Assembly (NCBI GenBank): GCA_013375485.1
Contig: JABXKB010000004.1
Coordinates: 1-38,578, forward strand
Length of the DNA: 38,578 nucleotides
Direction of reading: 5' to 3'
Source: Promethearchaeota archaeon
GTDB taxonomy: Archaea; Asgardarchaeota; Lokiarchaeia; Sigyniarchaeales; SOKP01
Under the pieces are notes generated by a model that worked only from the letters and a program-made list of their open reading frames with translations, was not told the DNA's origin and made no database searches. Made by a program: the position numbers and the translations under genes. Positions 1-38,578 of the stretch are shown here, piece by piece (the first letter of the stretch is position 1; every line of letters begins with the position of its first letter).

Positions 1-1041
1 TTCAATTACTCTAGAAATAGCTTTAGGCGGTAGAGTAAACTCATATTTTCCATAAGAGAATTCAATATATAATTTTTTGAAAACTTTACCTTTTTCCTTT
101 ATTCTTGTTAAATCTTGGACTGGGGCTTTAAATATTAATTCTTTTTTCTTTTTAACTATACCATACTCATGAACAAATGACAGATCAAAATTGGTTATAA
201 ATAAGATCCCTTTATCTTTCTTACATTTTTCTTGGGTATTCAAACCATTAGTTAGTTTGGCAAAAATCGCATAAACAGGTTTTTCCCCTTCTGCTAGTCT
301 TAATAATTTCTTGTATTCGCTAAAATAATAACTAACCTTACCAATAAATTGTAAGTTATTTTCGAAGGTTTCAAAACTATCGCTAAAAGTGCTTAAGTTA
401 TTTTTTATAAACTCATCAATAGCATGATAGCTTCTTGACAAATTTTCAAATATACCTTCTATGATTGTTATATTTGAATTTGGTTGGGGGTAAATATCAA
501 AGAAATATTCCTTATTTTGATTTAATTGATGAAAATGAACGTTTGTTTTTTCAAATAAAGTATTCTGTATATAAAGAAATAATTTAAAAAGAGCTAACAA
601 ATCTGATTCCATTTGAGGAAAATGATAATACTTATTAGGAGGATCTCTTACCTCTTTAATTTTTGATTGAAATAGATACAATTTGTCAAGTACTTCTTTT
701 AAAGGTTGAATAAATAAACGTGAATTTTTAATTAATTCCAAAAATCTCTTTTCTAATTCTTCTTTTTTCTCATAAATATTAACTATTTGATGAGAATCAC
801 ATTTTGGGCAAGATTTCAGTAGTTGATTGGCTTTAGTAATATTATCCTTACCACAATCCTTACAAACTTTCTTATTTTCAGACTCAAGAATTTGAATATT
901 TCTAGATTTACAATCCTGACAAATAAAGAAATCCACTTTTTTTTCATGGAGGCATTCAGAACAACAACTAGAGCCACACTCTTCACAATAATAAGCTAAC
1001 TTTACATATCTGTGACAAAATCTACACACTTGTTCTGACAT
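1..1041 (-). CDS. Cys-rich zinc-finger (B-box-like) protein with helical middle region and C-terminal PH/GRAM-like region; C-terminus truncated by window edge
   Basis: Manual reverse-strand translation from ATG at 1041 is open for 347 codons to base 1 (no stop). N-term MSEQVCRFCHRYVKLAYYCEECGSSCCSECLHEKKVDFFICQDCKSRNIQ...KVCKDCGKDN...KSCPKCDSHQ; C-term ...KCKKDKGILFITNFDLSFVHEYGIVKKKKELIFKAPVQDLTRIKEKGKVFKKLYIEFSYGKYEFTLPPKAISRVIE. Absent from ORF track because it runs off the edge. Confidence 0.8.
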   Translation of the reverse strand, partial: MSEQVCRFCHRYVKLAYYCEECGSSCCSECLHEKKVDFFICQDCKSRNIQILESENKKVCKDCGKDNITKANQLLKSCPKCDSHQIVNIYEKKEELEKRFLELIKNSRLFIQPLKEVLDKLYLFQSKIKEVRDPPNKYYHFPQMESDLLALFKLFLYIQNTLFEKTNVHFHQLNQNKEYFFDIYPQPNSNITIIEGIFENLSRSYHAIDEFIKNNLSTFSDSFETFENNLQFIGKVSYYFSEYKKLLRLAEGEKPVYAIFAKLTNGLNTQEKCKKDKGILFITNFDLSFVHEYGIVKKKKELIFKAPVQDLTRIKEKGKVFKKLYIEFSYGKYEFTLPPKAISRVIE

Positions 1042-1200: not shown

Positions 1201-1494
1201 TTATTTTATTATTTTTACTTTTTTACCTAAAGCTTGACCTGGAACCCCAGCTTTTTTGAAATGAGCTCTTACTGCTCCATTATTTCCATGAGCTCGAGTT
1301 ATAACTCCCTTTAGCTCTTTACCAGTAGGAGTAATCCAAACAACAGTCCTACCAATAAGTTTATTAGCATCTTTTCTTGTTTTTATATTAGGAAATACTA
1401 ATATACAGTGCTTCTGGTGTATTGTGTGGCGACCTCGTTTATAATTTGAGATTACTCCTTCTATTCCAAGCATGTTTAACTTGTTTAATGACAT
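1201..1494 (-). CDS. rpl35ae: Ribosomal protein eL33 (L35Ae family)
   Basis: 97 aa; GVISNYKRGRHTIHQKHCILVFPNIKTRKDANKLIGRTVVWITPTGKELKGVITRAHGNNGAVRAHFKKAGVPGQALGKKVKI matches the L35Ae/eL33 family pattern. Confidence 0.9.
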   Translation of the reverse strand: MSLNKLNMLGIEGVISNYKRGRHTIHQKHCILVFPNIKTRKDANKLIGRTVVWITPTGKELKGVITRAHGNNGAVRAHFKKAGVPGQALGKKVKIIK

Positions 1495-13996: not shown

Positions 13997-15433
13997 TTAA
14001 TCATGTAGAATAGGTTTTCTTGCAGCAGTAACTGCGTCTAATCGTTTAACCGGCATATTTTGAGGTGCATTTTTTAAAAGTTCAGGATGTGTTCTAGCTT
14101 CCTCATAAATATTATTCATTACTTCGACAAAATTATCTAAAGATTGTTTTGATTCAGTTTCAGTAGGCTCAATCATTAAAGCTCCCGGAACGATTAATGG
14201 AAAATAGATTGTTGGTGCGTACATTCCATAATCAAGAATACGTTTTGCGATGTCTTCTGTTGAAACTTCGTTGGGCATTCCTTGATCTGAGAGTACAAAT
14301 TCATGTTGACAGATTCGATTGAAAGGAAGATTAAATTTTTTCTGTAAAAGAATCCGTAAATAATTCGCATTTAAAACAGCAATCTGTCCGACCTTTTTTA
14401 ACCCCTCGGCTCCTAATGCTAATATATAGGCATACGCTCTTATTATCACTCCAAAATTCCCCCAAAAAGCTTTTATTCTTCCAATAGATAAATCATCATC
14501 TTCTCTACATATAATACCTTTTTCAGTTGAAATTAAACATGGTTTTGGGAGAAAAGGTATAAATTCTTTTACCACACCTACAGGTCCTGAACCGGGTCCA
14601 CCTCCACCGTGAGGTGTAGAAAAAGTTTTATGTAAATTTAGGTGAACAATATCAAATCCCATGTCCCGAGGACGACAAATACCTAACATTGGATTTAAAT
14701 TTGCACCATCATAATAACATAATCCCCCATTGTCATGTACTATACGTGTAATCTCCTTTATCTGTCTATCAAATACTCCTAAAGTATTAGGATTTGTAAG
14801 CATAATTCCTGCAACATCACCTTCCTGCATCGCAAATTCTAATTGATCTAATGGAACCTCTCCAAATTCATTTGATGTTAATTCTATAATTGAAAAACCT
14901 GCCATTTTTGCTGATGCTGGATTAGTTCCATGAGCAGAATCTGGAATAATTATTTTCTGTTTTTTAACACCCCTACTCTCAAAAAACTTTTTCATTATTA
15001 ATAAACCCACTAATTCTCCATGAGCTCCAGCTGCAGGTTGTAAAGTAAATCCATCCATACCTGTTATTTCCCCCAGTTGTCTTGAAATATGATAAAGCAG
15101 TTCAAGACAACCTTGATTTTCTTCTTGTAATGGATGAACATGTGTGAAGCCTGATAATTTTGCAATAGTTTCATTTACTTTAGGATTATATTTCATAGTA
15201 CAAGAGCCTAATGGATAAATTCCGGTATCACCTCCATAATTTCGATTACTTAATTTGATGAAATGTCGAACGATTTCGATCTCTGGAATATTTGGAATTG
15301 GTAAATCTTTTCGTTGTAAATTTTCTGGTAAAATTTCATTTAGTCCGGTTTGTTCTATATCCATTTTAGGTACAAAATTTTTCTGTGTGGTTTCATTTTC
15401 TTTTTCAAAGATCAATTGAATGTTAGAGCTCAC
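13997..15433 (-). CDS. gcvPB: Glycine dehydrogenase (decarboxylating) subunit 2
   Basis: PLP-lysine motif HLNLHKTFSTPHGGGGPGSGPVGV; GSCTMKYNPKVNE; LQPAAGAHGELVG. Confidence 0.95.
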   Translation of the reverse strand: MSSNIQLIFEKENETTQKNFVPKMDIEQTGLNEILPENLQRKDLPIPNIPEIEIVRHFIKLSNRNYGGDTGIYPLGSCTMKYNPKVNETIAKLSGFTHVHPLQEENQGCLELLYHISRQLGEITGMDGFTLQPAAGAHGELVGLLIMKKFFESRGVKKQKIIIPDSAHGTNPASAKMAGFSIIELTSNEFGEVPLDQLEFAMQEGDVAGIMLTNPNTLGVFDRQIKEITRIVHDNGGLCYYDGANLNPMLGICRPRDMGFDIVHLNLHKTFSTPHGGGGPGSGPVGVVKEFIPFLPKPCLISTEKGIICREDDDLSIGRIKAFWGNFGVIIRAYAYILALGAEGLKKVGQIAVLNANYLRILLQKKFNLPFNRICQHEFVLSDQGMPNEVSTEDIAKRILDYGMYAPTIYFPLIVPGALMIEPTETESKQSLDNFVEVMNNIYEEARTHPELLKNAPQNMPVKRLDAVTAARKPILHD

Positions 15434-15435
15434 TA

Positions 15436-16776
15436 TTATTTCTCCTCCGTTTTAATATTAGATGCTAAATGAGCTGCTTCAAGAAAGCTATCAATTGATT
15501 TTTTGGAGTTCATTTCAGTTATACAAACTAATGCAACATCTTTCATTTCGGGGTAATACTTAGAGATTTTTAGTGGAGGCTGAAGATCTAGTTGTCTACA
15601 TATCTTAATTAGAGTGTCAATATTAGGACATTTGACTAAAAACTCATTATATGTTGGTTTTTTATTCAATATTTCATAACCCTGAATTTTAGTTATTTCT
15701 TTTTTAACATAATGAGCTTTCTGAAAATTTTGAGTTGCAACCTCTTTTAAACCATTTCTTCCTAAAGCTAAAAGATAAGTTAATGCTGCCAATGAGCATA
15801 AAGCCTGATTAGTACAAATATTAGAACTTGCTTTTTCTCTGCGTATATGTTGTTCTCGTGCTTGTAATGTTAATATAAATCCACTTTTTTTCCCATTAAT
15901 TTCTGTTGTTTTTCCAATTAATCTTCCTGGTATCTTCCTTAAGTATTTTTGTTTAGCAGTAAAAATTCCTAACCCGGGCCCGCCAAAAGAGAGACTTAGC
16001 CCAAAAGGTTGTCCCTCAGCGACAAAAATATCTATATCTGTTGAACCCGGAGGATTTAAAACTCCCAAACAAGTTGGATCGGTCATAACTTGAATAACCA
16101 AACAATTAGGCGCTTTTTCTCGCACTTTATTAGTGAAATTCGAAACATCTTCAATATCGCCGAAGAAATTAGGACTTTGAAATAATACTGCTGCTACATC
16201 ATTATTTAAATTACTTCTCAAATTTTCTTCACTAACAATTTTGACACTTATATTTTGACCCCAACAATAAGTTCTAACCACTTCTTCATATTCAGGGTGA
16301 ATTCCTTTTAGCAATACAACCGTATTTTTGCGTGTTATAATTGTTGACATAATAGCTGCTTCAGCAAGAGCAGTTGATCCATCATACATGCTAGCATTAG
16401 CAACATCCATCTGTGTGAGTCGAGAGATTACTGTTTGATATTCATAAATAGCTTGCAAATAACCTTGACTAGCTTCAGCTTGATACGGCGTATAAGAAGT
16501 ATAAAACTCAGATCTCGAGGTTACAAAATCAACTAAAGATGGGATATAATGATAATAACATCCTGCTCCTAAGAAGGAACTCGAATATACTTTATTCTTT
16601 TGAGAAATTTTCTGTAATCGATATAAAAGATCTGGTTCAGATAAACCAGAAGGTAGATTAAGTTTATCAATAATTAAATCTTTAGGGATATCTTGAAAAA
16701 GATCTTGTAAAGATTTTACATCTATTACATCCAACATTTCAGTAATCGTCTTGTTATCATGAGGAATAAAATCCAA
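15436..16776 (-). CDS. gcvPA: Glycine dehydrogenase (decarboxylating) subunit 1
   Basis: FLGAGCYYHYIPSLVDFVTSRSEFYTSYTPYQAEASQGYLQAIYEYQTVISRLTQMDVANASMYDGSTALAEA; 2 bp upstream of gcvPB. Confidence 0.95.
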   Translation of the reverse strand: MDFIPHDNKTITEMLDVIDVKSLQDLFQDIPKDLIIDKLNLPSGLSEPDLLYRLQKISQKNKVYSSSFLGAGCYYHYIPSLVDFVTSRSEFYTSYTPYQAEASQGYLQAIYEYQTVISRLTQMDVANASMYDGSTALAEAAIMSTIITRKNTVVLLKGIHPEYEEVVRTYCWGQNISVKIVSEENLRSNLNNDVAAVLFQSPNFFGDIEDVSNFTNKVREKAPNCLVIQVMTDPTCLGVLNPPGSTDIDIFVAEGQPFGLSLSFGGPGLGIFTAKQKYLRKIPGRLIGKTTEINGKKSGFILTLQAREQHIRREKASSNICTNQALCSLAALTYLLALGRNGLKEVATQNFQKAHYVKKEITKIQGYEILNKKPTYNEFLVKCPNIDTLIKICRQLDLQPPLKISKYYPEMKDVALVCITEMNSKKSIDSFLEAAHLASNIKTEEK

Positions 16777-16834
16777 ACTAACTCCCCTTTTAGGTATTTA
16801 TTACGAATTAATTAAAACAATAAAGAAAAAAATA

Positions 16835-17230
16835 TTAATGTTCTTCGTTTTGGATTAATTGTTTATATTTTTCAGCAGATAAAAGTCCATCTATTTCACT
16901 AGCATTAGAAAGCTTAATCTTTATCATCCATCCATCAATAAATGGAGAAGAATTAACAAGTTCTGGATTATCAGCAAGATTTTGGTTTACTCCAATAATT
17001 TCTCCTGATAGTGGCATTATTAAATCGCCAACAGCTTTCACTGATTCAATTTCTGCTGCATTACTTCCCTTTTCAAATATCATACCAAGTTCAGGAAGTT
17101 CCACAAATACAATATCACCTAATTGATGTTGAGCATAATCCGTAATTCCAACTGTTGCAGTGGAATCTTCAATTCTTATCCATTCATGAGATGATGAGTA
17201 TTTTAAACCGTCAGGAAATTTATACTCCAT
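16835..17230 (-). CDS. gcvH: Glycine cleavage system H protein
   Basis: Lipoyl-lysine motif IESVKAVGDLIMPLSGEI; likely start is MEYKF (17230) rather than the tracked 17272. Confidence 0.95.
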   Translation of the reverse strand: MEYKFPDGLKYSSSHEWIRIEDSTATVGITDYAQHQLGDIVFVELPELGMIFEKGSNAAEIESVKAVGDLIMPLSGEIIGVNQNLADNPELVNSSPFIDGWMIKIKLSNASEIDGLLSAEKYKQLIQNEEH

Positions 17231-17264
17231 TATTTTCACTTTTTCTTTGTATTGTGTAGTTTTA

Positions 17265-18362
17265 TTAAACATTACGGTAAAAAGGTGTAGAAACTATTTC
17301 TCCTTTTAAGAGTTTATTGCGAATTTCAATTTCAATTTTATTTCCTATTTCACTATATTGTTTTTCAACGAGTCCTAAACCAATTGTTTTCTTAAGTGTA
17401 GGTGAATATCCTCCTGAAGTAACGAATCCAATTTCATTGCCATTTTTAAAGATTTTAAAATTCTCTCTAATAATACCTTTATCAATCAAATTAAGGCCTA
17501 CTATAATTCTTTTAGCTCCTTCAGATTTTTGGTTCATCAAAACATTCTTTCCTATATATTCAATCCCTTCTTTGGGTTTTACTAGCCAACTAAGTCCCGC
17601 TTCAATAGGAGTAATAGCATCACTTATCTCATGACCATATAATGAATAAGAAGCTTCTAATCTTAATGAATCTCTAGCTCCTAAGCCTGCTGGGATAGCC
17701 CCAGTGTTTAGTAGATCATTCCAGATCTTTTCTGCGAATTCATTTTCAAAGGAGATTTCAAATCCACGCTCTCCCGTATATCCTGTTCTCGCTATAAATA
17801 TTGAATTACCTTTAAGGGTACAATGAGCAAAATAAAACCTATTAATTTGAGAAAGATCAACATCTACAAGTGGTTGAAGATTTTCATCCGTTTTTGGACC
17901 TTGAAAGGCTATTCTTGATCTTTTTGTTGAAAGATTTGTGATTTTAACATCTGATTCCCCTATATGATCATTTAACCACTTGAAGTCTTTTTCAATATTA
18001 CTCGCATTAACAATCATTCTAAAACGTTCAGGGGTTTCCTCATAATATACGAGATCATCTACAACGGCTCCGTTTTCATAACACATACAGGAATACTGAC
18101 CTTTAGATGGCTCTAATAAATTTAAATCATTTATCATTATATATTGAAGAAATTTAATGACATCTTTGCCTTCAAGGAAAAATTCACCCATATGCGAAAT
18201 ATCAAATATACCCGAGTGAGAACGAACAGCTTCGTGTTCCTTTATTATACTTTCATATTGTACTGGCATATACCAACCAGCAAAATTAACCATCCGTGCA
18301 GCATGTTTTACATGAGTTTCATAAAGTGCTGTTTTTTTAATATTATCTAGTTCATTACTCAT
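17265..18362 (-). CDS. gcvT: Glycine cleavage system T protein (aminomethyltransferase)
   Basis: MVNFAGWYMPVQYESIIKEHEAVRSHSGIFDISHMGEF; ARTGYTGERGFEIS; AGLGARDSLRLEASYSLYGHEI. Probable start MSNEL (18362). Confidence 0.95.
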   Translation of the reverse strand: MSNELDNIKKTALYETHVKHAARMVNFAGWYMPVQYESIIKEHEAVRSHSGIFDISHMGEFFLEGKDVIKFLQYIMINDLNLLEPSKGQYSCMCYENGAVVDDLVYYEETPERFRMIVNASNIEKDFKWLNDHIGESDVKITNLSTKRSRIAFQGPKTDENLQPLVDVDLSQINRFYFAHCTLKGNSIFIARTGYTGERGFEISFENEFAEKIWNDLLNTGAIPAGLGARDSLRLEASYSLYGHEISDAITPIEAGLSWLVKPKEGIEYIGKNVLMNQKSEGAKRIIVGLNLIDKGIIRENFKIFKNGNEIGFVTSGGYSPTLKKTIGLGLVEKQYSEIGNKIEIEIRNKLLKGEIVSTPFYRNV

Positions 18363-18536
18363 AATTTCTACACACACTTACATTATTAATGTGTTTGAGA
18401 TATATAGTGGAATAAAATATGTGCTTAATTAAAATTTTTTGGCTTTCGGATAATAGCCAAAAGTTTACTTTATTAGTTTTGATATTCTAGACTAAAATCG
18501 TAAAAATTTATTTATTAGGTATATTTTAATTAAAAA

Positions 18537-19478: not shown

Positions 19479-20018
19479 ATGGCTCAGCGAAAGATGCTCT
19501 TTAAAGTGGTTATTGTGGGAGATGGGGGAGTAGGTAAAAGTACTATGGTACAGAGACTAACAACGGGGCAGTTTATCCCTCAGAAAATTACAATAGGAAC
19601 TGATCTTGCAGTCCAGAGAATACAAATCGATAATAAAACAACTGTAAATCTTCAGATCTGGGATTTTGCGGGAGAAAGACGTTTTAGATTGTTTTTACCT
19701 AATTACTCTCGAGGAGCAACTGGATGCTTACTTTGTTATGATATAACAAGGCAAACTAGTTTTGACAGTTTGGATGAGTGGTTTAAAATTGTAAATGAAA
19801 ATGCTATTGATCCCGTATTTATCTTAGTTGGAGAAAAACTTGATTTAGCAGACATCAGAAGAAGTGTACGATATGAACATGCTGAAGAATTCAAAAATAA
19901 ATATAATTTAGATTACTTTTTTGAGACTTCCTCAAAAAGTGGTGAAAATAATAAAATGATTTTTGAAACATTAACTCATTCGATTATTAAGAAAAGACAA
20001 CTTCTTAAAAAAGAATAA
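19479..20018 (+). CDS. Ras/Rab-like small GTPase
   Basis: G1 GDGGVGKST, G3 WDFAGERRF, G4-position VGEKLDL, G5 ETSSKSG; 179 aa. Confidence 0.92.
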   Translation: MAQRKMLFKVVIVGDGGVGKSTMVQRLTTGQFIPQKITIGTDLAVQRIQIDNKTTVNLQIWDFAGERRFRLFLPNYSRGATGCLLCYDITRQTSFDSLDEWFKIVNENAIDPVFILVGEKLDLADIRRSVRYEHAEEFKNKYNLDYFFETSSKSGENNKMIFETLTHSIIKKRQLLKKE

Positions 20019-22157: not shown

Positions 22158-22574
22158 TTGATATTTATGTCTAATAATAATATTAATCCCTCAAAAGAAA
22201 GTACCTTCGCTGAAGCTATTGCAAATATATATAAACCTCTAAACAATAATAAGAAATTCAAGGAAGAGTATAAAAATGATACTTTTAAAATTTTATTAAA
22301 TCCTAAAGATGGGAAATTTGCTGCTTTAATTACAGTAGATAATGGAAAATTATCAGTTGAAAGTATAGAAAATACATCTAAAAAAAACCTTGATCAAAAA
22401 GTTTTGGGATGGAATGGGTTAATGCAAACAACTAAAGAATTATTCAGTTCAATAGGGAGGGGAGAATTATCAACAAGCGATATAGCAAAGAAGGTTGTAA
22501 CACGTAAAATTAAAGTTAAAAATACTAAAATTTTAACGAAATTCTCGGAGTTAGGTTCTATATTAAGAGAATAA
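22158..22574 (+). CDS. SCP2-like sterol/lipid-transfer domain protein (putative)
   Basis: FKILLNPKDGKFAALITVDNGKLSVESIENTS...LFSSIGRGELSTSDIAKKVVTRKIKVKNTKILTKFSELGSILRE resembles the SCP2 fold pattern; likely start ATG 22167. Confidence 0.6.
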   Translation: MIFMSNNNINPSKESTFAEAIANIYKPLNNNKKFKEEYKNDTFKILLNPKDGKFAALITVDNGKLSVESIENTSKKNLDQKVLGWNGLMQTTKELFSSIGRGELSTSDIAKKVVTRKIKVKNTKILTKFSELGSILRE

Positions 22575-28192: not shown

Positions 28193-29146
28193 GTGTTAAA
28201 TAAGATGCTAAGTGATCCAGAACCTTATGAGAGCTCTATTGCAGATGTGAAAATTTTAGAGGAAGAAATTATACCAATAAATGAAGCTTTTCTGAAAGTT
28301 TTTGGTTCTGATAAAGAGTTAAAATTAAATTCCATTAAATTAGCTATTGGTAGTAATTACAATGACTATGTTACAATTGAAGAGAATGATTTGGTTAAAT
28401 TTGATGTTAAACCAACGCTTACTGGTTTGTTGGATTTTATCAAAAGCAATAAAGAAAGTATTTTAGGATTTTTAGATTGTGAATATATTAGTGAAGAGGG
28501 TAATGTCATATATTTAAATTGTGGGAAAAAGAATATATCAGAAAATATTTACTCTATAAAAGTATTGATCCTTGCTTCTATGCAACAAAGGGGATTTTTT
28601 CTTCAACAAGAACATAAGTATTATGGTCTACAGCTTTATTTAATTATAGAATCAAGAAAATCTAACGATAGTTTATTATTTGAGCTATTGAGAGAACTAA
28701 ATATTGATTGGGAAGTAATCTTCTTTAGAAGAAAACTTGCTATTCATGATTGGACTGAAATAGAATGTGAAAAAAACTCTGAAAATCTTAAAAGTTTTCT
28801 TCGTGCTAAATTTGAATCCTTAAATTATTTTGATGTTAATAATATAATTCGGTTAGTAGTTAAAAATCAATTACCATTTAAAGTAGCGAACAAAATGGCT
28901 TCTTTGTTATATAAAATGAAAAGTGAACGATCGCTTAGATTTCATGAAAAACAATTTCAAGAGAATCCATATGAAGATGATCCAGTTCAACAAGATGAAT
29001 ATTCAATAACTCTTAAAAAAGCAGAAGTTGCTGCTGCTGCTAAATTAGCATGCGCGTATTTAGGATTTCAAAAGAAAATTAAATTTGATCGAGATATTTC
29101 TGTTGATGAAATATTGAAATATGAAGCGGAAATAAATAATTTGTAA
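28193..29146 (+). CDS. Protein of unknown function; coding frame extends upstream to about 28007
   Basis: 317-aa ORF from GTG; in-frame upstream IGTDTTEGKFIEKFRAVIDDNTSLSIYNKKKRSFCIIRKDLAKSYEIEVDASEAP without stop. No family recognised. Confidence 0.75.
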   Translation: MLNKMLSDPEPYESSIADVKILEEEIIPINEAFLKVFGSDKELKLNSIKLAIGSNYNDYVTIEENDLVKFDVKPTLTGLLDFIKSNKESILGFLDCEYISEEGNVIYLNCGKKNISENIYSIKVLILASMQQRGFFLQQEHKYYGLQLYLIIESRKSNDSLLFELLRELNIDWEVIFFRRKLAIHDWTEIECEKNSENLKSFLRAKFESLNYFDVNNIIRLVVKNQLPFKVANKMASLLYKMKSERSLRFHEKQFQENPYEDDPVQQDEYSITLKKAEVAAAAKLACAYLGFQKKIKFDRDISVDEILKYEAEINNL

Positions 29147-29206: not shown

Positions 29207-30202
29207 TTAATTCAACCCATAGGACTGTCTTAATAACTCATGATTTACTTTTCCTACGGTGATGCTTTTACCTGTATTAATATTTGTGATTGTATATTTT
29301 GCTGGAGCGAATAATCCAGGATCTATTTCATAGAAATTATAGTTTGCTGTTTTGAATATTTCGAGAAATGGTTTTCCATAACTAGAGGATGTATGTGCGG
29401 GGGCTTTTTTAACGAGTTCAAATAATTCTACTTCATTTTCCTTCTCAACTTTAATTGTGTAATATGTCAATCCCGCAGCAATTATAGAGTCATTAGTACG
29501 CCCCATTGCACCAAGATCGTCTTTAGCAATAGGAGCAATTGTAGTGGTCCCAAAACCATTAGTTATTACATCTATTGGAAATTTTATTTCGTGCAACTTA
29601 TGTATTCCAGTCTCTACGATTCTAGCAGCTACTTGAATGGAACCGGTCAAACAAGCAGTTGGAGCACAGATTGCATAAGCATTGTTTGGATTAACACCAC
29701 ATTTGTTAGCCACAATATCCATAACTTCTTCATTTGGTAATTTTGGAGTTTCAAAAACAATAACAGCACAATTTGAATCATCAGTATAATCTAATTCTTC
29801 AAAAATTTTTTCTACCTTACTCTTAGCACGAGCAGGTCCTGATCCTAATGATTGAAAAACTATTTTTTTTTTCAATTGTCCCTCTTTTTCTACTTCTTTT
29901 TTCAATTTAACGTTCCATCCCGCCAATTGAGAAGCCATACAGGAAATTACCGGTTCGGAAGTATATACATTTACACTTGGTATATAATGTCCATCTAAAT
30001 TATAAGAAGAAAATTTGACTGTCCCTAACCCTCCCATACAAATCTCTCCCAGAAGTTTTCCTCCAATCCAAGAAGCTTTAGCCATATCGAGAATAATTGA
30101 GCCATTATCTAATTTATATATCTTTATATTATAAATTTCCTTATTTTGTATGATTCTTTCAACGATTTTCTTAGCTAGTTCATTAATTTTTACATGAAGC
30201 AC
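29207..30202 (-). CDS. mch: Methenyltetrahydromethanopterin cyclohydrolase
   Basis: MASWIGGKLLGEICMGGLGTV-like block (AKASWIGGKLLGEICMGGLGTVKF), SLGSGPARAKS, GAMGRTNDSIIAAGLTYY, YGKPFLEIFKTANYNFYEIDPGLFAPA. Confidence 0.93.
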   Translation of the reverse strand: MLHVKINELAKKIVERIIQNKEIYNIKIYKLDNGSIILDMAKASWIGGKLLGEICMGGLGTVKFSSYNLDGHYIPSVNVYTSEPVISCMASQLAGWNVKLKKEVEKEGQLKKKIVFQSLGSGPARAKSKVEKIFEELDYTDDSNCAVIVFETPKLPNEEVMDIVANKCGVNPNNAYAICAPTACLTGSIQVAARIVETGIHKLHEIKFPIDVITNGFGTTTIAPIAKDDLGAMGRTNDSIIAAGLTYYTIKVEKENEVELFELVKKAPAHTSSSYGKPFLEIFKTANYNFYEIDPGLFAPAKYTITNINTGKSITVGKVNHELLRQSYGLN

Positions 30203-36172: not shown

Positions 36173-37138
36173 TTGTTAACCTTGAAAATATTACTTTTTG
36201 GACCTGCAGGAGCAGGTAAGACATCACTAATGCGTACAACATGCCTCGGGTATAATTTTATGAAAGTTTTAAATTTGAAACCTACCAAAGGTGTTTCTCG
36301 AGAGAATTTTATTTTCCGTGGTATAATGGAGCTTAACGTTTGGGACCTTGGAGGTCAAGAACGGTACATGGAGCGATATTTCTCAGAATCTCAACGCGAA
36401 CTAATATTTTCAGAAGCAAAAACAGCTGTATTTATGGTTGATTCTGTAGCAATAGATCCTGAAGTACGTGATATTTTTGAAAAATTCTTGAAATATGTAT
36501 TAGAATTTTCTCCTAAGATCAATATGATTTATGTATTATTAAATAAAATTGATTTAAATGAATCGAAAGAGGATGAATTCTATGAAATCCTAACTAAGGA
36601 TTTAAATAATGGTTTAATGGAAAGAATTTCATTCACTCCTGTATCTGTTAAAGAAGGTAGTGCTCAACATAGATTAATTGAAATCCTCGATTATGAGATT
36701 CAGAAGAATACTCTATCAATGCAACGTCTAGGAAAAATACGCCATTTATTAGATGAGTTGAAAATCAATACTTTATCTGAATATCTTTTGTTCAACCAAC
36801 CCGATGGATTGTTAATTTCTTCTACATTTGGTAAGTTTGAATCAAAACCATTACAGTTTATGAAATTTGAAATCGGGACTTTAGATTCTAATATTTATAG
36901 TATTTATCAACAGATTATGGAACTTCAAAATGTTTCAAATCTTTCTCCTTTATCATTATCAACTGTTGTCTATGAATCAGATGATTGTTGGATTTTAGTG
37001 AAAGAGGTCAGTAATGGAGCAGTTTTAATGGCAGTCACAAGGAGTAAGAGCCCCGAAGTTTTTTCTAGTGTTATGAATGCTATGACTGGTGATTCATTCA
37101 AAAATTTAAAACTATATTTGAAATCTTCTGAATACTAA
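36173..37138 (+). CDS. Rag/Gtr-like GTPase with C-terminal roadblock/longin-like region
   Basis: G1 GPAGAGKTS, G3 WDLGGQER, G4 LLNKIDL; C-terminal ~120 aa (LLDELKINTLSEYLLFNQPDGLLISSTFGKFES...CWILVKEVSNGAVLMAVTRSKSPEVFSSVMNAMTGDSFKNLKLYL) reads as a roadblock-like alpha/beta domain. Confidence 0.82.
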   Translation: MLTLKILLFGPAGAGKTSLMRTTCLGYNFMKVLNLKPTKGVSRENFIFRGIMELNVWDLGGQERYMERYFSESQRELIFSEAKTAVFMVDSVAIDPEVRDIFEKFLKYVLEFSPKINMIYVLLNKIDLNESKEDEFYEILTKDLNNGLMERISFTPVSVKEGSAQHRLIEILDYEIQKNTLSMQRLGKIRHLLDELKINTLSEYLLFNQPDGLLISSTFGKFESKPLQFMKFEIGTLDSNIYSIYQQIMELQNVSNLSPLSLSTVVYESDDCWILVKEVSNGAVLMAVTRSKSPEVFSSVMNAMTGDSFKNLKLYLKSSEY

Positions 37139-37197: not shown

Positions 37198-38043
37198 TTA
37201 TTGTTCTTTATCATATAACCCAATCTTTGATAAAAATCTTTGTTGCTTTGCATGGTGTGGTCTTCTGATAACTGTATCATTGGATTTTTCCATTTCCCTT
37301 GCTTCATCACATATTAACGCGGCAATTCTCATCATTTCATGGGCTGCGGCTAATAATGGCATATATTCAGATCTTTCTCTTAATTGGAAACATGCTTTTC
37401 CTGTAACTCTTGATACTGAAGCAGCAAGTTCAAAAGCAGCAATTGCTTTAGCTCTAGCATAAGGATTAGAGAACTTAGCAGCTTCGGTTGCGATGTTTGC
37501 ATCAATGATAATTTGAGGTAAACTAGGTGTTCTACCTTCAAGCATATCCATAATGACTTTATTTAGTTCCTCAGCGATTACCTGAAGCGCTCCGGTGATT
37601 GCTAGAACCTTTAGCAAATCTGAGTTAAATATACTCATTTCAATATGATCAAGAAAAGGTCTACGTGCTCCGATCATACTGTCACAATTTACTAAAATAT
37701 AACCCATGTTCTTTTCTTTAATTTCATCAATAGCTTTTTTAGCAGGAGCATCAGAAATTACTATAGTGGGGATAACGCCCGACATTTCTCTTACTGCTTT
37801 AGGTCCCGGTAAAGCTGCATTTGGGCTTGACATTATTATTAATTCTGGCTCAAATTCAAGTAATTGTTTCATAGTTTCTACACAATGACTTGCAGGATGC
37901 ATTTTAGCACCAGAAGTTACTTCTCTTACATTGATTCTCGTAGATTCTGCTCTTTCATCCATTAAAAAAGCCAATAACAAGGAAGAACCAATTGTCCCAT
38001 TTTTAAGAATGCCGATCTTAAGTATTTTCTCTTCTTCGCTCAT
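37198..38043 (-). CDS. mtd: F420-dependent methylenetetrahydromethanopterin dehydrogenase
   Basis: KIGILKNGTIGSSLLLAFLMDERAES, VREVTSGAKMHP, PNAALPGPKAVREM, YMPLLAAAHEMMRIAALICDEAREMEKSNDTVIRRPHH; likely start MSEEE at 38043. Confidence 0.95.
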   Translation of the reverse strand: MSEEEKILKIGILKNGTIGSSLLLAFLMDERAESTRINVREVTSGAKMHPASHCVETMKQLLEFEPELIIMSSPNAALPGPKAVREMSGVIPTIVISDAPAKKAIDEIKEKNMGYILVNCDSMIGARRPFLDHIEMSIFNSDLLKVLAITGALQVIAEELNKVIMDMLEGRTPSLPQIIIDANIATEAAKFSNPYARAKAIAAFELAASVSRVTGKACFQLRERSEYMPLLAAAHEMMRIAALICDEAREMEKSNDTVIRRPHHAKQQRFLSKIGLYDKEQ

Positions 38044-38218
38044 TTTATTCAACTTTTTTATATAATATCTCATTTTAAAATTAGAATTATATAACCTTAC
38101 AATTTTACAACGTTTTTATTTTTTTTTTAAAATTTTATATAAAATAGAATGCTATAAGTTAATACAAATTATTAAAATTTTTAAAACAAAAACACTATTA
38201 AAAGGAGTATTATTTAAA

Positions 38219-38578
38219 ATGGAGATAAATGGTGTAGAAATTGAAAATACCTATTCTGAAGCATTTGGGGCCGTTTTTAGTAGAATTCTAGTAACAGCAA
38301 AAAATGAGAAATGGGCGAATATTGCAGGTCAGGTTACCACTGGATATGGAACTTCAACTATCCATTGCGATGCTGAAGCGGGAATAGATATATTTGTTAC
38401 CCCTGATAAGACACCTGATAACCGTCCTGGAGTAATTTTAATGTTTTTTAAAAATAAAAAAGAAGAAATGAGTAAAGTAGTAATGAATCGTGTTGGACAG
38501 TGTATTTTTACATGTCCTACAACTGCTTGTTTTGATGCGTTAGATGCCTCATTAGATCCTGAAAAAATATTTGAAATA
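38219..38578 (+). CDS. ftr: Formylmethanofuran--tetrahydromethanopterin formyltransferase, N-terminal part (truncated by window end)
   Basis: Manual translation of 120 open codons: MEINGVEIENTYSEAFGAVFSRILVTAKNEKWANIAGQVTTGYGTSTIHCDAEAGIDIFVTPDKTPDNRPGVILMFFKNKKEEMSKVVMNRVGQCIFTCPTTACFDALDASLDPEKIFEI. Confidence 0.93.
   Translation, partial: MEINGVEIENTYSEAFGAVFSRILVTAKNEKWANIAGQVTTGYGTSTIHCDAEAGIDIFVTPDKTPDNRPGVILMFFKNKKEEMSKVVMNRVGQCIFTCPTTACFDALDASLDPEKIFEI

Follow-up and report, generated by a model that had tools for sequence, protein, structure and literature searches.

The window, by which we mean the whole stretch of 38,578 nucleotides analysed here, begins with part of a gene whose product we assign, on its sequence-derived architecture, to Znr_CC_PH_SB (also Znr_PH_CC_SB), a known, experimentally unstudied Asgard family, since every feature of that family can be recognised in it. 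We consider the protein to be probably an ESCRT-I-type adaptor. In 2024, an mBio paper introduced the family (cog.011556) as Asgard proteins in which three zinc ribbons are combined with coiled coil, PH domain and steadiness box (PMC10936438). It is absent in eukaryotes and likely ancestral in Asgard archaea (Makarova et al., PMC10936438), and the published account, one paragraph without experiment, regards it as a likely ESCRT-I component whose PH domain, judging from Vps36, is expected to associate with membranes (PMC10936438). A literature search for experimental work on Znr_CC_PH_SB, including binding or localisation data, found none. The initial annotation had described the same frame as an unlisted, TRIM-like protein of eukaryote-like flavour, with a B-box-like zinc region of at least three CxxC knuckles, a Lys/Glu-rich helical middle and a PH/GRAM-like C-terminal segment. 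The zinc and PH parts of this reading, the helical middle and the eukaryote-like flavour are borne out below, whereas the family is not unlisted and the TRIM-like label does not hold.

The minus-strand frame described at positions 1 to 1,041 is genuine: it starts with an ATG at 1041, runs for 347 codons without a stop and is open at the window edge, i.e. the gene is truncated by the contig end. When the genome of the window (457 contigs totalling 4.6 Mb) was searched, the last 48 residues of the frame recurred at the end of contig G000:C451 (3,360 bp), which shows an exact overlap of 144 nt with the window start. Leftward extension, as had been suggested, thus continues the frame on C451 and yields a protein of 660 aa. 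The join is supported by a genus-mate (L034), which encodes an uninterrupted 660-aa ortholog with 92% identity over the window part. The gene and the parts of its product are as follows:

Window 1..1041, minus strand: Znr-CC-PH-SB gene, codons 1-347 of 660 (open reading frame and 144-nt contig overlap)
910..1026, minus strand: residues 6-44, eight invariant cysteines in a B-box/FYVE/RING-like pattern (conserved in 63/63; Pfam and PDB matches)
799..864, minus strand: residues 60-81, four invariant cysteines, predicted zinc ribbon (conserved in 63/63; A2L_zn_ribbon)
301..777, minus strand: residues 89-247, run of long helices corresponding to the 'CC' in Znr_CC_PH_SB (AlphaFold2, L034 ortholog)
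1..279, minus strand: residues 255-347, PH/GRAM-like domain (AlphaFold2, profiles, Foldseek), its last helix running onto C451
G000:C451 (L003:2275-3216), minus strand: remaining 313 codons and stop (continuation of the frame)

The domain order is therefore a 12-cysteine zinc region, a helical region, a PH/GRAM-like domain, a disordered linker rich in N, P and Q, and a C-terminal steadiness box. Pfam searches with the window fragment alone gave weak and misleading matches (Nop5_N, PAZ_4) and neither PH nor B-box at cut-off, which made family-wide scans necessary; the window protein or its closest ortholog stays below the Pfam cut-off for every domain, and the domain assignments rest on family profiles. 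Of 228 Asgard genomes, a family profile built from 43 full-length members matched 211 at E <1e-3 and 154 at E <1e-30; matches that miss the stricter threshold may reflect no more than similarity in the zinc or steadiness-box part. One homologue per genome was found in 77/83 Lokiarchaeia genomes and in 17/18 of the high-quality ones.

The diagnostic part of the protein, the steadiness box, lies on C451 and is invisible from the window sequence. In the AlphaFold2 model of the L034 ortholog, the C-terminus forms a two-helix hairpin (566-606 and 612-654), which profile comparisons identify as a steadiness box of the Vps23/TSG101 core type. The three top matches of a hairpin-only profile against the PDB were all yeast Vps23 core (1.3e-6, 1.7e-6 and 8e-6), with human TSG101 (0.0035) and VPS37B (0.11) lower down. 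Pfam Vps23_core matched 30/43 full-length members, above the curated cut-off in one case (G002:C122), and the C451 part of the window gene is the sole Vps23_core match in its own genome (2.8e-4). In f28, the largest of the non-Loki families, the sequence signal of the steadiness box is weak. The steadiness box is the assembly module of ESCRT-I, and its presence therefore marks an ESCRT protein and not a TRIM-like one.

The hairpin follows a linker predicted to be disordered (411-573 in the L034 model) and N/P/Q-rich in composition, which is 16-235 aa long in nearly all members; the linkers of 63 members contain no TSG101-binding P[ST]AP motif. A core hairpin after a disordered linker is shared with Vps23/TSG101, but in place of a recognised UEV domain the window protein has zinc sites, helices and a PH domain at its N-terminus. 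No UEV domain was among the listed Pfam matches of the protein or its family, which are thus not placed as Vps23/TSG101 orthologs. A genome-wide search with Pfam UEV models likewise gave no match in the protein's own genome, but none in any control genome either.

At the N-terminus, we found six CxxC knuckles, twice the minimum previously proposed, and hence three putative zinc sites as in Znr_CC_PH_SB. Their twelve cysteines (C6, C9, C19, C22, C27, C30, C41, C44, C60, C63, C78 and C81) are invariant in 63/63 homologues across Asgard archaea, so the feature is not due to chance. Residues 6-44 have the spacing C-x2-C-x9-C-x2-C-x4-C-x2-C-x10-C-x2-C, which suggests cross-brace zinc pairing. The B-box-like character of the region is supported by Pfam zf-B_box matches in 22/23 family members (best 3.9e-5). 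For PF00643, one distant member scored exactly 24.1 bits, the curated cut-off, and the L034 ortholog 15.4 bits; the last ligands of the module are C-x2-C. An ANCHR-like B-box profile matched 16/23 members and the FYVE profile 7/23 (best 3.2e-5). The eight-cysteine cross-brace spacing is common to FYVE proteins such as Vps27/HRS and ANCHR, but the basic PI3P motif of FYVE domains, R(R/K)HHCR, is absent from all 23 aligned members. The remaining four cysteines resemble a zinc ribbon (A2L_zn_ribbon, 2.3e-4 in the L034 ortholog), and the model places small strands in the zinc region (residues 1-88).

Profile searches of the zinc region against the PDB matched RNF4 RING, TRIM2 B-box and PHD structures. 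With the cross-brace cysteine pattern and the layout of zinc finger and coiled coil, these matches could be taken to indicate a TRIM-like or RING-like ubiquitin ligase, as RNF4 RING ranked first (2.2e-7, in two stretches) and the TRIM2 B-box second. The RNF4 match, however, spans only part of the ring pattern, and Pfam RING was weak and seen in 3/23 members (0.0024, below cut-off), the window protein itself giving no RING match. Neither the arrangement of a RING followed by a B-box nor the TRIM combination of RING, B-box and coiled coil was found. Since the C-terminal steadiness box and the ESCRT neighbourhood also favour the adaptor reading, we regard a ubiquitin ligase as very unlikely.

The Lys/Glu-rich middle corresponds to long helices at residues 89-247, modelled as 89-110, 112-132, 144-181 and 188-242 with pLDDT mostly >85 (AlphaFold2, L034 ortholog). 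It is followed by a seven-strand barrel with a C-terminal helix at residues ~255-353 of this 92%-identical protein, and further helices extend to residue 408. Refolded alone, the PH domain reached a pLDDT of 85.5. Among 50 PH regions, bPH_3 matched 26 (best 2.5e-8; above cut-off in several members) and the GRAM model 20. Foldseek with the isolated PH region returned a clean list of PH-like structures, including the Lam6 PH-like domain and MTMR2 as well as the PH domains of Exo84 and TBC1D23 (target TM 0.65-0.68). Model, profiles and Foldseek thus agree on a helical region followed by a PH domain, the order of Znr_CC_PH_SB.

With the full model, Foldseek instead ranked the DH-PH structures of Tiam1, ECT2 and Dbs first, and two Ras-superfamily GTPases are encoded in the window. 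In that reading, the helical domain would be the exchange domain, followed by PH, of a factor acting on the many small GTPases of Lokiarchaeia. The superpositions were poor (TM <=0.33, rmsd mostly ~20 Å) and agreed only in the order of helices then PH, and neither a RhoGEF family nor a DH domain was among the listed Pfam matches. For these reasons we rejected the DH-PH reading, which we judge extremely improbable.

A closer parallel to the proposed adaptor is the N-terminal GLUE domain of yeast Vps36 (ESCRT-II), a PH domain with inserted zinc fingers, which likewise combines a PH-like fold and zinc fingers in an ESCRT protein. The Vps36 GLUE profile matched 16/50 PH regions (best 3.1e-4), and Vps36 GLUE was the top, albeit weak, PDB match of the PH profile (E 0.084). 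In contrast to the split PH domain with inserted NZF fingers in Vps36, the PH domain of the window protein is continuous in the model and its knuckles lie N-terminal to it; it has no EAP30 winged helices and carries a steadiness box instead. Compared with the published Znr_CC_PH_SB, no difference in architecture was seen: both have three zinc sites, a coiled-coil or helical region, PH, a steadiness box and an ESCRT context. What our analysis adds to that description (PMC10936438) is that the first two zinc sites look like a B-box/FYVE cross-brace and not like ribbons, that the chain has a long disordered stretch ahead of the steadiness box, and that the family is near-universal in Lokiarchaeia.

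The gene neighbourhood provides further evidence for an ESCRT function. An ESCRT-III gene of the Snf7 family, generally in convergent orientation, is near the family gene in 49/65 compared loci; these 49 cover nine Asgard families, and loci within one genus are non-independent. Since a typical Loki genome has one or two ESCRT-III genes that can be detected, chance does not explain this adjacency. In several non-Loki families, the region also holds genes for Vps4 (MIT-AAA), Vps25 and EAP30. In the genome of the window, the order is L35Ae, the Znr-CC-PH-SB gene, a methionine-synthase-like gene, a leucine-rich-repeat-like gene and an ESCRT-III tail:

Window 1201..1494, minus strand: ribosomal protein L35Ae, co-directed upstream neighbour (PF01247, 3.8e-17)
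C451:3-71 (L003), far contig end: ESCRT-III tail, last 23 codons

A Snf7 search of the same MAG found no ESCRT-III elsewhere, and the rest of the tail gene is missing from the assembly. Because the 23-codon tail sits at the end of C451, the apparent absence of ESCRT-III is most likely an assembly gap. L35Ae adjoins the family gene in 32 of the compared loci and is conserved there in Lokiarchaeia; despite this adjacency, it is outside the system. Vps28 was detected in 69/83 Lokiarchaeia genomes, in the present one on C413; Pfam models found no EAP30 in this genome.

That the conserved neighbour is ESCRT-III and not the vps28/vps22 cluster, together with the location of Vps28 on a different contig and the ANCHR-like B-box profile in 16/23 members, would also suit an ESCRT-III-side regulator resembling ANCHR/ZFYVE19 or CHMP7, which would gate Vps4 or ESCRT-III at the filament and would not be a stoichiometric ESCRT-I subunit. 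The steadiness box argues against this, being specifically an assembly element of ESCRT-I, and ANCHR is not known to have one. We therefore consider such a regulator unlikely, although less so than the alternatives discussed above.

In eukaryotes, ESCRT membrane recruitment is split between Vps36-GLUE and ESCRT-0. Building on the computed architecture, conservation, steadiness-box homology and gene neighbourhood, we propose that in the Asgard adaptor the steadiness-box hairpin would pack onto its counterparts in Vps28 and/or other steadiness-box proteins within an ESCRT-I headpiece, with the flexible N/P/Q-rich linker tethering the N-terminal half. The PH/GRAM-like domain would contact the membrane or a membrane-bound partner, and the cross-brace zinc module and ribbon may bind another protein, perhaps cargo or ubiquitin. 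In this way, the protein could recruit ESCRT-I to the membrane, along with the product of the neighbouring ESCRT-III gene. Asgard archaea are reported to have no full-length Vps36 (Hatano et al. 2022, PMC9192718). The same study describes a freestanding Loki steadiness-box protein for which two-hybrid tests indicate possible binding to Vps28 and Vps22; against this background, the adaptor model is plausible and can be put to the test. More tentatively, the family might represent an ancestral Asgard membrane adaptor for ESCRT that unites an ESCRT-0 FYVE-type zinc finger, a Vps36-GLUE PH domain and a Vps23 steadiness box in one chain and couples ESCRT-I directly to the adjacently encoded ESCRT-III without Vps36, a possibility that we hold to be less likely than its opposite. 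Few features tie Asgard archaea to eukaryotes as clearly as ESCRT does, and the question addressed here is how Asgard ESCRT-I reaches membranes without full-length Vps36 or ESCRT-0. Being single-copy, nearly universal, equipped with PH and steadiness box and encoded beside ESCRT-III, the Loki protein is a direct candidate for testing this.

Several other features were observed. The window encodes a Ras-family small GTPase (19479-20018; PF00071, 1.2e-41) and a Gtr1/RagA-like GTPase (36173-37138; PF04670, 8.9e-23), the latter with a C-terminal extension of ~170 aa that has no Pfam match at 1e-3; the same applies to the open reading frames at 28193-29146 (317 aa) and 22158-22574 (138 aa). Probable glycine cleavage genes, named by reading the sequence, form one run at 13997-18377 and would encode the P protein in two halves together with the H and T proteins, and mch, mtd and ftr of the tetrahydromethanopterin C1 pathway (29207-30202, 37198-38073 and 38219-38578) lie within 9.4 kb. 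Elsewhere in the genome, a Vps28 C-terminal-like domain is part of an 803-aa open frame (L119, G000:C207, 84-362). Frames of ~800 aa like this one recur in most Loki genomes and perhaps belong to the multidomain Vps28_C type known from Asgard archaea.
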